DNA from: a virus
Length of the DNA stretch: 37,960 nucleotides
IMG/VR virus record: IMGVR_UViG_3300020312_000093
Location: 1-37,960 of that record
Strand: one strand, 5' to 3'
Below are positions 11,854 through 37,889 of the stretch, one piece after another; position 1 is the first letter of the stretch, and the number at the start of each line of letters is the position of its first letter. The position numbers and the translations under genes were made by a program. The notes beneath the pieces are model-generated. The model was not told the origin of the DNA. It saw only the letters and a list, made by a program, of their open reading frames with translations, and made no database searches.

Positions 11854-11883
11854 TTGACATAGGGGTACATAAAAGTGTATAAT
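11854..11883 (+). promoter_or_regulatory. Strong sigma70-like early promoter for the island ncRNA
   Basis: TTGACA (11854-11859), an 18-bp spacer and TATAAT (11878-11883), both hexamers perfect. The spacer carries AGGGGTACAT at 11861-11870, starting 1 bp after -35 and 7 bp before -10. The same GGGTACAT at the same place occurs in the promoters at 29888-29917 and 37528-37557. It faces the plus strand, away from gp25, and transcription should start near 11890. Confidence 0.8.
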
Positions 11884-11889
11884 AGTATT

Positions 11890-12117
11890 CTAGTTTGGGA
11901 TTGAATCTAAATTAAGTAGGTTCCACAGAAGGTGCCCGAGGAGTAGTCTCCCTTGACTTGAAACAATAGTAACCAAGAGCTGATGACGACAGTGAGGTAG
12001 GAGTCCCAACCAGAGAGTCGATTCGACAACAGTGAAGACTGGTTTATGCAGACGACTCTCGAAAACGACCCATCGATCTAGGTCAACAAGTAGTTGCATT
12101 TCGGTGGGTCTTTTTTT
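11890..12117 (+). ncRNA. Probable structured noncoding RNA, about 228 nt
   Basis: It is bounded by a perfect sigma70-type promoter and an intrinsic terminator, with no convincing ORF between them (the longest ATG frame on this strand is 11 codons). Paired elements visible: GGTT 11919-11922 with AACC 11971-11974; GGAG 11940-11943 with CTCC 11948-11951; an 8-bp stem GAGAGTCG 12013-12020 with CGACTCTC 12053-12060, enclosing CAGT-GAAG-ACTG; and the terminator stem. It contains the first TAGGAGTCCCA copy at 11998. I could not match it to tmRNA, 6S, RNase P RNA or a known riboswitch. Its last bases overlap, antisense, the end of the 24-aa gene. The 5' end is inferred. Confidence 0.6.
12067..12117 (+). 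terminator. Intrinsic terminator of the island ncRNA
   Basis: A 9-bp stem, GACCCATCG (12067-12075) with CGGTGGGTC (12102-12110) including one G-U pair, a 26-nt loop containing a small CAAC/GTTG hairpin, then seven T at 12111-12117. Confidence 0.75.
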
Positions 12118-27169: not shown

Positions 27170-27409
27170 TTATGTTTCAAATTTTGTTAAAGTTCCTTTA
27201 CCTCTCTTTGTGTTGGGTTTTAAGAAATTTAGGTTAGTTGCATCCGCCTCTATCTTTTCTTTTAGTGGTGGAGTTATAAGATGCTTGACCGATTGTGGGT
27301 CTAGATAATGTTGTTCACAAAAGACTACTATCGCATCAATGTAGTTCATGTTTTTGTCTGCAACTAATTCCTCTATTGCAGCTGTGAATCGTTTTTTCGT
27401 AATTATCAT
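27170..27409 (-). CDS. 33: Late transcription coactivator gp33
   Basis: 79 aa (T4 gp33 has 112). IEELVADKNMNYIDAIVVFC matches T4 MVEEFGMSYLEATTAFLEEN; LDPQSVKHLITPPLKEKIEA followed by DATNLNFLKP matches T4 IPETQFAKFIPSGIIEKIQS, EAIDENLLRP. gp33 binds the RNA polymerase beta flap and links the sliding clamp to late promoters, which fits the TATAAATA boxes seen here. The N-terminal extension of T4 gp33 is missing. Gene order 33 then 59 then 32 is kept from T4 with insertions. Confidence 0.88.
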   Translation of the reverse strand: MIITKKRFTAAIEELVADKNMNYIDAIVVFCEQHYLDPQSVKHLITPPLKEKIEADATNLNFLKPNTKRGKGTLTKFET

Positions 27410-27427
27410 TTTTTTATCTACTATATT

Positions 27428-27455
27428 ATTATCTCATGGATTCTTTATTTGTCAA
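27428..27455 (-). promoter_or_regulatory. Sigma70-like promoter for the gp33-bS21-gp59 operon
   Basis: TTGACA (27450-27455), 16-bp spacer, GATAAT (27428-27433), 19 nt before the gp33 ATG. No GGGTACAT element. It faces away from the plus-strand late promoter at 27472. Confidence 0.6.
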
Positions 27456-29388: not shown

Positions 29389-29567
29389 TCAGAATCTTTT
29401 TGCATTTGGTCATCGTATTCATTAGACTTCATCTTCTTGACTTTATCTAATTCTTTCTCAATTGCATTCTTCTCTGCAACTAATTCTGCAATACGAACCA
29501 TCAATTCTCTGTTCTGTTTTTCCATTTCACGAACATTACCTTCAAGAATTTGGTAAGTGTTTGGCAT
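29385..29567 (-). CDS. Small coiled-coil protein, 60 aa
   Basis: MPNTYQILEGNVREMEKQNR followed by ELMVRIAELVAEKNAIEKEL and a charged tail: heptads through residues 8-48 predict a coiled coil. It overlaps the 103-aa gene by 26 nt in another frame. No family recognised. Confidence 0.6.
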   Translation of the reverse strand: MPNTYQILEGNVREMEKQNRELMVRIAELVAEKNAIEKELDKVKKMKSNEYDDQMQKDSD

Positions 29568-29853
29568 TTCTTTTATCTCTTACTTTAAGTTGTGCTTGGA
29601 TTATAACCTTCTCTTTCTCTGTAAAAACATCGATAGATTTAGGCCCCCAGACTGTTCCAAATCTCGTAAGTTTATCACATGCAGATAACATATTATTCCA
29701 TACATCATCTTCTGCACAACCCTTCCGATCTTTCTCGAACAGTTTACGACTAAACCTTAATGATTTGGTCTTATTCTTTTCTGCATATTCAGCTATTTCC
29801 CTGCCGATTTCTGCCAGTTTTAACTCTCCCTCAGTCATATCATAATATCCCAT
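29542..29853 (-). CDS. Hypothetical protein, 103 aa
   Basis: Helical and charged (KLAEIGREIAEYAEKNKTKS, KLFEKDRKGCAEDDVWNNML, VFTEKEKVIIQAQLKVRDKR). CAAGGAG lies 8 nt before the ATG, and an early-type promoter with GGGTACAT stands 35 nt upstream, so it is the first gene of an early unit. Function unknown. Confidence 0.7.
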   Translation of the reverse strand: MGYYDMTEGELKLAEIGREIAEYAEKNKTKSLRFSRKLFEKDRKGCAEDDVWNNMLSACDKLTRFGTVWGPKSIDVFTEKEKVIIQAQLKVRDKRNAKHLPNS

Positions 29854-29887
29854 TATATACTCCTTGAGTTAATTATAAATTGTTACC

Positions 29888-29917
29888 ATTATACAAGAAT
29901 ATGTACCCTACAGTCAA
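29888..29917 (-). promoter_or_regulatory. Early-type promoter with GGGTACAT spacer element
   Basis: TTGACT (29912-29917), 18-bp spacer, TATAAT (29888-29893). The spacer has TAGGGTACAT (29901-29910 on the minus strand), 1 bp from -35 and 7 bp from -10, the same geometry as at 11854 and 37528. The TGA of the -35 is the stop codon of the upstream 144-aa gene. Confidence 0.8.
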
Positions 29918-30348
29918 TTGTTTTCTGGAAACAAAGGAACAACCTTTGCACCTTTTTGTCTCTGTAGTTCTTCTTCATCTTGTTTTTTAATTTCTTCAAT
30001 ATCTTCTTCTAATTCTGAGGGAACTGGATAACCGAAATTTTGTAATAGTTCCTTGATATGTTGTGGTTCCATAAAGAGTTTATCAATACTGTCTTCATCT
30101 TGCCATTCAGTAAAGATATCTTCATTAGACTCTTGCATTATGGATTGTCTTGTTCTTAGGTAGGTATCACTGATAAGTGATAAATGTGTGATTGCTTTAT
30201 ATAATGACAACCAATTAGGATTTATATCCAATGGGTCGAGGTCTGGGTCGTCTGCATATGCAACTGATATCTTCTGAAACCAACCATCGTTTTGGGTTAT
30301 GACAAGAGCAAGATCACCCTTGTTCATCTTTAAAATGTGTTCTGTCAT
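29914..30348 (-). CDS. Hypothetical protein, 144 aa
   Basis: An acidic, helical protein with DGWFQKISVAYADDPDLDPL and a C-terminal run of Glu/Lys (LEEDIEEIKKQDEEELQRQK). It overlaps the end of the 259-aa gene by one base. No family recognised. Confidence 0.7.
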   Translation of the reverse strand: MTEHILKMNKGDLALVITQNDGWFQKISVAYADDPDLDPLDINPNWLSLYKAITHLSLISDTYLRTRQSIMQESNEDIFTEWQDEDSIDKLFMEPQHIKELLQNFGYPVPSELEEDIEEIKKQDEEELQRQKGAKVVPLFPENN

Positions 30349-33125: not shown

Positions 33126-33971
33126 TCAAAAATCTCCGATATGTTCTTGCAATTCCATTAACCTATTCTTAATAAAGTAGTTGAGTAGACCACTTCTTGG
33201 TTTTGGATTAAAGTTCTCAAACTCTTCCAGAATTGCATCTTTATATTGTTTAGGTATATAGGTGAGATCAATAAGTGTTCTATTTCTCTGGAAGTTTCTT
33301 TCTACCTCACTGTCTTTTTCAACCAGTGGGTCTAATAAGATACCTCTTTTCTTTTTAGAAATAGGTCTCTGCCTAATACCTTCTACTATACAATCATCTT
33401 GACTTAAAACATTAGGAACTCCATCCCCTTTGTCTCCACTTATAATGTGGTTTGCAAGATATTCTGTTGCCTCATTATTATTTAGTGTGATAGTTTTTCT
33501 TGTTATTGGTGAATACTGATTGACTTTCTTGTATCTCTGTAACTGTTGAAAGTCTTTATCACCACTAACTATCATAATGTTCTCAGAGTCCCCATATCGT
33601 TCACAGAGAACCCCTATAACATCATCCGCTTCACAACCCCATACATTGAGATACTTGTATGGGAAATTGTCTCTCAGTTCGTCTCTAACTTTGTTGAGAC
33701 ACTCAAATACTAGATTCCAATCTAAATCAGATTCGTCTCTACCTTTTTTCCTATGTGCTTTATACAGAGGAAAGAAATCTTTTCTCCAATAATGTATAGA
33801 ATCCGAGCAGAGAACTACTTCTCCAAACTTCTTAGTATATTGTTTTCTATAATTCGCAATTGATTTAAGACAGATATGTCTTACCAAGTCCTCAGAGATT
33901 GGGTCTTTTCCACCCCTAGTCTGAGCCATAAGTGATGCAATCATCACTTGAGTCAAGTCTATTAGTATCAT
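33126..33971 (-). CDS. rnh: RNase H, T4-type 5'-3' exonuclease
   Basis: 281 aa (T4 RNase H has 305). FEN-1 family acidic residues are all in place: ILIDLTQ (Asp5), VVLCSDSIHYWRKDFFPLYK (Asp57; T4 VLCIDNAKSGYWRRDFAYYY), CEADDVIGVL (Glu114, Asp116), IVSGDKDFQQL (Asp138, Asp140) and SGDKGDGVP (Asp180, Asp183). The C-terminal FNPKPRSGLLNYFIKNRL matches T4 YKLPPRGKIYSYFVKAGL. It removes RNA primers with help of gp32. Confidence 0.95.
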   Translation of the reverse strand: MILIDLTQVMIASLMAQTRGGKDPISEDLVRHICLKSIANYRKQYTKKFGEVVLCSDSIHYWRKDFFPLYKAHRKKGRDESDLDWNLVFECLNKVRDELRDNFPYKYLNVWGCEADDVIGVLCERYGDSENIMIVSGDKDFQQLQRYKKVNQYSPITRKTITLNNNEATEYLANHIISGDKGDGVPNVLSQDDCIVEGIRQRPISKKKRGILLDPLVEKDSEVERNFQRNRTLIDLTYIPKQYKDAILEEFENFNPKPRSGLLNYFIKNRLMELQEHIGDF

Positions 33972-35087
33972 TTAATTCACTTTCAATAATATAGTGTGTT
34001 GGTTTATTCTTCCTGTTGGAATGGACGATTTTGTGTTTATTTCATCCATTACTTTACTTAATACTATTTTACCACCTTTCTGTATTCTGTCAAGGAAATA
34101 ATCTGTCTTGTTTCCTATCTTCTTAGTGGTTCCTCTAAAATTCTGTAATGTAGTTCCTTTGATACCAATTCCACCTCTATCCAGTGCAAGGTATCTGGTG
34201 ATTTCTTTTGTCTTGGTGTTGAATGCCCAGAACTCCATAGAACCGACAATCATTGTAGGGTCAAGTGATGTTAGTTGGTAGTCTGCATCACTCCACTTGT
34301 ACTTTAGGTTCTTAGATTGTTGTTCTGCACTGTAAATCTTTTTCTTTCTTGGTTTTCTCTTCGATTTACCATCGGCATATTTCTCTATTGATTCAATAAT
34401 ATCTTCATGAAACTTTTTAAACTTTCTTAATTGTGGTTTAGTTAGGAATGAATATCCTTCTTTAAGTTGTGGGTCAGTACCATCTAATGCTTCTGTAACT
34501 TCTGCAAGATTAGGTCTAAAGATATCTGCAATCTTTAATGCAACTGGCCCAGATACTTTCAAATCTTGTAGATATGCAAATGTGTTAAAATCTGATTTCA
34601 TGTTTGTAGATTCTAATACACAATCTATTGCATAGTCTATCTCACCACTCAATACATTTGCTTTATTCTGTATTCTTTCTTGAATGGATACAAATGGTTT
34701 CTTAGGTTCGTATTTCCTTTTCTCTTTTGTAGTGTTAATCTTTTTAACGATACTATCGATTAATGGTTTAATCTTTTCTTCTACAGTCATACCACCCAAG
34801 TTTGGTGGTTCTGGGAAATCTGGGTCTGTTATACATGGGACTTGTCTTAACTCCATACGAGCAAGACTTGCTGTTGAATTAGGAATGTGGTCTGAATACT
34901 TTCTGACTTTATCAATATACTCTGAATGATACTCATTATGTTTCATCCAGTCTGCCAACCAACCACTTAGTTGTTCTTTTTTAGACATATAAGAGTACCA
35001 TTGAAAACATGCATGGATGTTTCCTTGATAGTTTTCATCTGGTTCTGGCCCATAATGAATTTCGTCTATTGTCTTTTTTCTTCCCAT
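33972..35087 (-). CDS. Hypothetical protein, 371 aa
   Basis: No family recognised. A mostly helical N-terminal half includes YKWSDAD-like tryptophan elements (HACFQWYSYMSKKEQLSGWL, ADWMKHNEYH) and a Lys-rich stretch around 115-135. A Lys/Arg-rich linker (SKRKPRKKKIYSAEQQS) precedes a beta-rich domain: YQLTSLDPTMIVGSMEFWAF, NTKTKEITRYLALDRGGIGI, KGTTLQNFRGTTKK. It starts one base after nothing else and its stop abuts RNase H (33971/33972), so the two are coupled. A nucleic-acid-binding function is suggested only by charge and neighbours. Confidence 0.65.
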   Translation of the reverse strand: MGRKKTIDEIHYGPEPDENYQGNIHACFQWYSYMSKKEQLSGWLADWMKHNEYHSEYIDKVRKYSDHIPNSTASLARMELRQVPCITDPDFPEPPNLGGMTVEEKIKPLIDSIVKKINTTKEKRKYEPKKPFVSIQERIQNKANVLSGEIDYAIDCVLESTNMKSDFNTFAYLQDLKVSGPVALKIADIFRPNLAEVTEALDGTDPQLKEGYSFLTKPQLRKFKKFHEDIIESIEKYADGKSKRKPRKKKIYSAEQQSKNLKYKWSDADYQLTSLDPTMIVGSMEFWAFNTKTKEITRYLALDRGGIGIKGTTLQNFRGTTKKIGNKTDYFLDRIQKGGKIVLSKVMDEINTKSSIPTGRINQHTILLKVN

Positions 35088-37005: not shown

Positions 37006-37491
37006 TTATGCTGCTAAATTGTCCCTATACTCACAGGCAGTTTTATTATCTACCCATTGTCCATTGTCAAGTTCATACTCAGACTTATATGAACCATCTT
37101 CCCTACCACCTTCTAGGGTAGGAATCCAAAATTCTCTTTGCCTAATGATACCACGAACATGATCCATCATTAAAGGACTTCCAAGTTTCTTACATTGCCA
37201 ACCACGACCAATTGCAAAGTTCTCTTCAAAGATAACAGGTGCTTCCCATTCTTCACAAACTACTTTGTCGTCTTCGACAACATCTATATCGATGATGTAC
37301 TCTTTAGACATAACATCATCGTACTCGATTAATTTCTTAATCTCAGGCACGATACGAATTCGTGCATCACGAGGATCAACATCTTCAACCACATAAGTGG
37401 AACCACCTTTAGGTTTCCAGTAATCATTACCCTCGCCAGGATTATCACAATTATAATTCTCTAGATATTGGGTTTGTATTACTAATTTCAT
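37006..37491 (-). CDS. Hypothetical protein, 161 aa
   Basis: MKLVIQTQYLENYNCDNPGE then YWKPKGGSTYVVEDVDPRDA. The start MKLVI-TQYLENYG and KGG-TYVV are familiar from phage proteins of unknown function. A WEAPVIFEE and GRGWQCKKLG follow, and a C-terminal half with SEYELDNGQWVDNKTACEYR. GAGAGGAC ribosome site and an early-type promoter are directly upstream. Confidence 0.7.
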   Translation of the reverse strand: MKLVIQTQYLENYNCDNPGEGNDYWKPKGGSTYVVEDVDPRDARIRIVPEIKKLIEYDDVMSKEYIIDIDVVEDDKVVCEEWEAPVIFEENFAIGRGWQCKKLGSPLMMDHVRGIIRQREFWIPTLEGGREDGSYKSEYELDNGQWVDNKTACEYRDNLAA

Positions 37492-37527: not shown

Positions 37528-37557
37528 ATTATACGAAAAAATGTACCCTAGTGTCAA
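37528..37557 (-). promoter_or_regulatory. Early-type promoter with GGGTACAT spacer element
   Basis: TTGACA (37552-37557), 18-bp spacer, TATAAT (37528-37533), with TAGGGTACAT (37541-37550) 1 bp from -35 and 7 bp from -10. The TGA in the -35 is also the stop codon of the upstream 111-aa gene. It serves the 161-aa and following genes. Confidence 0.82.
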
Positions 37558-37889
37558 ATGTTCTCTGCTAAGAGTTCTTCCAAATCCCACTCTGCTTCAT
37601 CTTTATCGTTATCAACAGACCTTTTTAAATCCTCAAATGGTTCAACCAAGTCGTAAATTGCAGACTCTAATTTGTTTACACATTCACGAACTTCTTTGAT
37701 TTTCCACTCTAAATCGTCTTTATCGATACCATACTCTTCTGCATAAGACTCAACTTTTAAGTAAATATCAGAAGGTACATCGTTGTACTTAATCTCTTTA
37801 GTCTTTGCATTGACTAAACCAATAGCAGAATCAAGGTTATCAGATTTCTCTTCTAATGCCTTGATTTTCTTTTCTAACTCAATTTTCAT
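37554..37889 (-). CDS. Coiled-coil hypothetical protein, 111 aa
   Basis: MKIELEKKIKALEEKSDNLD, then LEWKIKEVRECVNKLESAIY and an acidic end EAEWDLEELLAENI. Strongly helical and charged with heptad-like spacing. AAAGGAG 7 nt before the ATG. Its stop codon forms part of the next promoter. Family unknown. Confidence 0.7.
   Translation of the reverse strand: MKIELEKKIKALEEKSDNLDSAIGLVNAKTKEIKYNDVPSDIYLKVESYAEEYGIDKDDLEWKIKEVRECVNKLESAIYDLVEPFEDLKRSVDNDKDEAEWDLEELLAENI

Follow-up and report, generated by a model that had tools for sequence, protein, structure and literature searches.

At the MotA/AsiA-dependent middle promoters of T4, a phage-specific block upstream of the sigma70 -10 box sets the temporal class. 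This MotA box reads TGCTTtA at -30 (PMC1524935), 11-13 bp before the -10, and occurs with no sigma70 -35. The early promoters of T4-type phages (T4, RB49, RB69, Aeh1) are described there as strong host-sigma70 promoters that precede novel ORFs and tRNAs, with conservation in the -35, -10 and A-rich upstream regions (PMC1524935). For cyanomyoviruses, early and middle control was stated to be unclear in a review, as was the separation of early from replication (middle) genes in marine T4-like phages without MotA/AsiA (PMC2984593). No identifiable middle promoters were reported for Melnitz, a cultured OM43 phage whose sigma70 promoters were all treated as one early class (PMC9004378). Cluster A mycobacteriophages (L5, TipsytheTRex) have asymmetric, oriented operators or stoperators, which are repeated through the genome, and a monomeric repressor (PMC9283540).

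We analysed promoters in a window of 37,960 bp that is an entire IMG/VR record; the genome-wide search for further copies was therefore run on relatives. The promoter class studied here, class A, is like the T4 middle promoters in carrying a block upstream of a sigma70 -10. As the original prediction had it, place and sequence set it apart from the MotA box, and so does the retained -35: TTGAC is kept, and the word GGGTACAT lies at -27 to -20 with a 7-bp gap to the -10. Moreover, class A marks orphan and tRNA genes, whereas MotA promoters mark replication genes. A search for MotA/AsiA (PF09114, PF09010) gave no match in four contigs of the clade (G006, G026, G014, G009), which may be incomplete, and was positive for the T4 control. 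Like the T4-type early promoters, class A is of the strong host-sigma70 type before novel ORFs and tRNAs, but a fixed 8-bp spacer word and a spacer-defined replication class are features that the accessible part of that source does not mention for them (PMC1524935). Like the operators of L5 and TipsytheTRex, the class A site is asymmetric, oriented and repeated through a phage genome; unlike L5-type stoperators, it shows no excess of sites outside promoters, and no repressor homologue was found in the proteins screened.

A word in the spacer defines a discrete promoter class

The GGGTACAT promoter class is real and discrete, and not a local coincidence. All three promoters of the form TTGACW-N3-GGGTACAT-N7-TATAAT that had been predicted in the window were found in place, with 0 mismatches over the three 30-bp sites. 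One lies at 29888..29917 on the minus strand (TTGACT-N3-GGGTACAT-N7-TATAAT, word at 29901-29908, predicted +1 at 29881), one at 11854..11883 on the plus strand (word at 11863-11870), where it drives a putative non-coding transcript, and one at 37528..37557 on the minus strand (word at 37541-37548). These 3 matches to 19 fixed positions compare with 0.02 expected, and as many were reached in 0 of 100 dinucleotide shuffles of the window. Exact copies of the word in the window also number 3, every one inside these promoters, while copies with 1 mismatch were at chance level (28 seen, 26.8 expected). The sites put forward as lacking the word do lack it: 27428-27455 is a promoter of another class (class B), 12516 reads TTGACT-N16-TATAAT, and the homologue of 29360 (G004:13960-13988) reads TTGACA-N17-TATAAT. 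At two of the class A promoters, the TGA stop of an upstream ORF falls within the -35 TTGAC, namely that of ORF 29914-30348 at 29912-29917 and that of ORF 37554-37889 at 37552-37557.

The window encodes T4-type baseplate, gp32-like, RNase H-like and helicase-loader-like proteins. By gp32, the nearest phages are Kyanoviridae and other marine T4-likes, with at most 57.5% identity among the matches listed; one further gp32 relative, outside the matches listed, falls in the 60-80% identity band. Megablast of window bases 1-25000 against phages gave no match.

Further copies had been expected beyond the window, and the exact pattern occurs in 33 stretches of IMG/VR contigs. Every one of the 27 source contigs has class A sites at up to 3 mismatches (as many as 11 per contig), and the reversed control gave 0 in each. 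A class A matrix matched 83 times in 0.91 Mb, a count that did not change as the threshold was varied between 10 and 20 bits; the reversed matrix gave 0, Melnitz 0-1 and HTVC008M 0. Most of the contigs belong to one uncultured genus-level clade of marine T4-like phages, with at least 75% nucleotide identity where aligned. G024, which also carries GGGTACAT, is a different phage outside this clade, and class A sites were absent from nine related phage records (HTVC008M, Mosig, Melnitz, P-SSM2, S-H9-1, three AG-345 viruses and XG4). Counts of a late-promoter motif in the class A contigs were at control level.

The logo of 57 non-redundant sites reads TTGAC-a-[CGT]-A-t-GGGTACAT-WWWWT-n-G-TATAAT-R-nnn-a-YAT-R. 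Class A thus has the features of a sigma70-type promoter (TTGAC, an 18-bp spacer, TATAAT, YAT at +1), with -35 and -10 boxes near consensus, and the word holds more information (13.1 bits) than the -35 (8.7) or the -10 (8.5). It hardly varies, in contrast to spacer position 23 and the flanks, where the letters are close to random, and its offset from both boxes is fixed across the 83 sites. At a constant distance of 7 nt from the -10 the sites keep Y(-1)A(+1)T(+2), the common form of initiator with A at +1, which supports the predicted start at that point. When promoters were picked by -35 and -10 alone, 68 of 94 had the word at up to 3 mismatches and the other 26 stood at 5-8 mismatches, a similarity at chance, with none between. 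None of 80 promoters with 17-bp spacers carries the word at 0-1 mismatch.

When class A backbones were scanned with the word left free, a few contigs (L358, L362, L386) proved to carry GGGTACAT displaced by 1 bp. A few sites with a poor -35 (TTGCAT, TTTAC) retain the word. Some word variants are common to unrelated promoters of one lineage, AGGTACAT in G026 and GGGTGC in G014, and sharing within lineages was as extreme in 20 of 2000 permutations. A second TACAT, 21 bp downstream and over -3 to +2, is present at 10 of 57 sites against 2.4 expected. The sites are asymmetric and contain no inverted repeats, unlike those of G024 and XG4. The positive contigs hold 62 exact words, 50 inside promoters and 12 elsewhere, with 19.6 expected overall; a role as stoperators was rejected, the 12 non-promoter copies being fewer than the 19.6 expected by chance. 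DNA methylation at GTAC was also rejected, because the G014 sites read GTGC.

Two sigma70 classes divide the genes

The best support for a regulon marked by the word is a complementary class on replication genes, a partner that the original prediction did not include. Class B, with 78 sites in the same phages, reads TTGACArAT-N5-TT-n-TRTRG-TATAAT, with a 16-bp spacer and no word. In the window, one such promoter at 27428..27455 on the minus strand precedes a gp33-like late coactivator gene (27170-27409), and another at 34066..34093, also minus, precedes an RNase H/exonuclease-like gene (33126-33971). Protein clustering found no downstream family shared by the two classes. Class B families comprise DNA polymerase, primase, UvsX, UvsY, clamp loader, exonuclease/RNase H, the late sigma gp55, the gp33 coactivator and Hsp20. 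Class A families comprise orphans, a CobS-like AAA ATPase, a phage peptidase, a 5'-nucleotidase and, weakly, a SprT-like protein; class A also precedes tRNAs, with tRNA-Asp beginning about 20 nt past the promoter in G006 and G009. Two of the orphan genes lie in the window on the minus strand, at 29542..29853 (103 aa), whose family follows a class A promoter in 11 contigs and a class B promoter in none, and at 37006..37491 (161 aa), whose family stands behind class A in 4 contigs. The AlphaFold model of the former is helical, of moderate confidence (pLDDT 71), and matched no PDB entry at E <= 0.001. The claim of a distinct class was thus borne out both by the conserved block at -27 to -20 and by a coherent gene set. 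We infer from gene content alone that class A is early.

With two sigma70 classes that differ in spacer content and length and whose gene families do not overlap, the question of how early and replication genes are separated becomes directly testable. A word that stands before one gene set and never before replication genes points to a switch protein in phages where the known T4 switch was not found. Promoters with a regulator element are of a known kind; the split of two sigma70 classes by a spacer word in this lineage is, as far as we found, new, and a search of the open-access literature, which included the word itself, found no published description of class A.

A putative non-coding RNA and possible leaderless starts

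No ORF of at least 35 aa lies downstream of the promoter at 11854..11883. A putative non-coding RNA of about 228 nt (11890..12117, plus strand) would run from the predicted +1 to a GACCCA...TGGGTC stem with a T7 tail. Parts of it are conserved in contig G012 at 75% identity, and no Rfam match was found in the window. The regulon had been said to include this RNA, and the class A gene set does include it as a putative member. Elsewhere, class A promoters with no downstream ORF are found at G017:3599, G012:26951 and 27030, and G026:125805.

Of the 83 class A promoters 28, and of the 78 class B promoters 33, have an ATG that begins just 6 nt past the -10 and coincides with the predicted +1. Such promoters in G006, G026 and G014 (e.g. 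L206, L191, L200) include those of primase, UvsY, gp55 and DNA polymerase genes. With an ATG at the predicted start in more than a third of the promoters, leaderless mRNAs are suggested, and they may be systematic in the T4-like phages of this clade.

A candidate regulator site and competing readings

The word is specific to one class and one clade, sits in near-consensus promoters and is absent from the sister class, and for these reasons we read it as a regulator site. We tentatively prefer, as close to an even call, the reading that GGGTACAT is the site of a regulator, probably phage-encoded, that most likely represses class A as a block. A sequence-specific DNA-binding protein would recognise the word at -27 to -20 within consensus sigma70 promoters and would switch the orphans, CobS-like ATPase, peptidase, tRNAs and ncRNA together, apart from the replication and late-control genes of class B. 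Host RNA polymerase alone would fire the strong class A promoters at infection; a phage protein would then bind the spacer and exclude polymerase, silencing class A while class B comes into action. What we infer here is the existence of a protein bound to the word, its origin in the phage, its repressive sign and its timing. A phage-encoded factor is favoured because drift of the word is shared within lineages, as expected of a co-evolving factor, although a lineage-specific host factor would give equal drift. Conserved clade-specific proteins were screened, not exhaustively, and none looked like a convincing DNA-binding regulator.

Repression is more likely than activation. Since the -35 and -10 of class A are near consensus, help in recruitment is not obviously needed on sequence grounds; in a subset of sites TACAT recurs two helical turns further on, across the start, where an activator would be badly placed; and two unrelated phages, G024 and XG4, place clear operators there. 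The asymmetry of class A, which has none of the inverted repeats of those two phages, counts against an operator, but asymmetric operators read by a monomeric repressor do exist in phages (PMC9283540). The main argument for an activator is the strictly fixed register to both boxes in 83 sites, since activators need a fixed register more than repressors do. Copied promoter cassettes (ancestry) could also explain part of that register, which speaks against any regulator site. Such an activator or specificity factor on RNA polymerase (MotA- or GcrA-like), injected or made from class B, would direct polymerase to class A. A substitute is conceivable where MotA and AsiA were not found, and the few poor -35 sites that keep the word fit this idea. 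Against it, nearly all class A promoters have consensus boxes, unlike MotA promoters, core mismatches are not compensated by a better word (of 61 sites with an intact core 41 have the perfect word, as do 9 of the 22 whose core has a mismatch), and the conserved proteins screened offered no candidate; we rank it next, as possible though not likely. It is unlikely, too, that a polymerase-associated specificity factor of a kind not yet described reads the word in place of the MotA/AsiA logic in marine T4-like phages, where early and replication promoters would be told apart by a spacer code particular to each lineage.

The original prediction had invoked a factor or a polymerase feature. The promoter class itself is upheld, while reading by RNA polymerase is not, given a strong TTGACA/TATAAT class that has no word and the rarity of the full pattern in cellular genomes. 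Adoption of a host regulon signal, read by a host factor or host RNA polymerase, we regard as improbable. The clade does share one promoter design, and host-adapted word changes between phage lineages would resemble those seen. However, class B promoters of the same phages have no word, and 84,980 genomes of bacteria and archaea yielded just 5 exact matches to the full pattern, roughly the chance level. The test was strict (both boxes perfect), and a weaker host regulon could escape it. Of the 5 matches, 4 represent one locus in Nitrososphaerales archaea (L143, L144, L146, L147), a shared conserved stretch with near-identical flanks and likely a coincidence. We give hardly any weight to the idea that the clade merely copied a promoter cassette in recent times and that its word has no function. 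The identity of the positive contigs is what such copying would leave, but the word stays almost invariant next to flanks and a spacer position 23 that vary nearly at random, non-promoter copies are not enriched, and a partition by gene function is unexpected from copying.

Spacer elements in other phages

In G024, a 72 kb contig (L401-L404), GGGTACAT...ATGTACCC forms a palindrome around the -10 of promoters. Palindromes on GGGTACA or close variants are found in 13 of 28 promoters with 17-bp spacers, and at least 11 promoters have GGGTAYA-N12/13-TRTACCC around the -10 (e.g. G024:11277-11302). Judged by their letters, they evidently form an operator array over small early-type genes. Many promoters of Pseudoalteromonas phage XG4 (PP712099, L280-L286) read TTGACATGATGATTCTATTTGATATAATAGAATCATCA, a different palindrome in the same place. 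Its site list is mirrored about one centre, from about 64 to 97 kb, which suggests an inverted duplication within the record. In both phages the element lies in the spacer as in class A, the G024 half-site being the identical word, but these are inverted repeats around the -10, whereas class A is asymmetric.

Similar lineage-specific spacer words are visible in two cultured phages. Melnitz has 11 promoters with a fixed spacer of its own, CCTTGACW-TTTGTT-N4-AAACATG-TATAAT, mainly before small hypothetical proteins and a nucleotidase-like gene. The SAR11 phage HTVC008M has 8 matches to GCTTGACTTTT-N7-ATTGTGA-TATAAT, before genes that include gp55-, DNA polymerase-, UvsX- and primase-like ones, named by resemblance to annotated class B proteins. 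Both thus have a spacer-conserved sigma70 class, as here, but with other words; in P-SSM2, Mosig and AG-345-L05 no spacer word was obvious by eye. The scan for class A boxes with any word returned mostly single orthologous promoters and terminator-promoter fusions, in which a GC-rich hairpin around TTGAC is followed by a T-run as spacer and then GTATAAT (L317, L347, L339, L291, L298), for example AATAGGGGCC-TTGACA-GGCCCCTATT.
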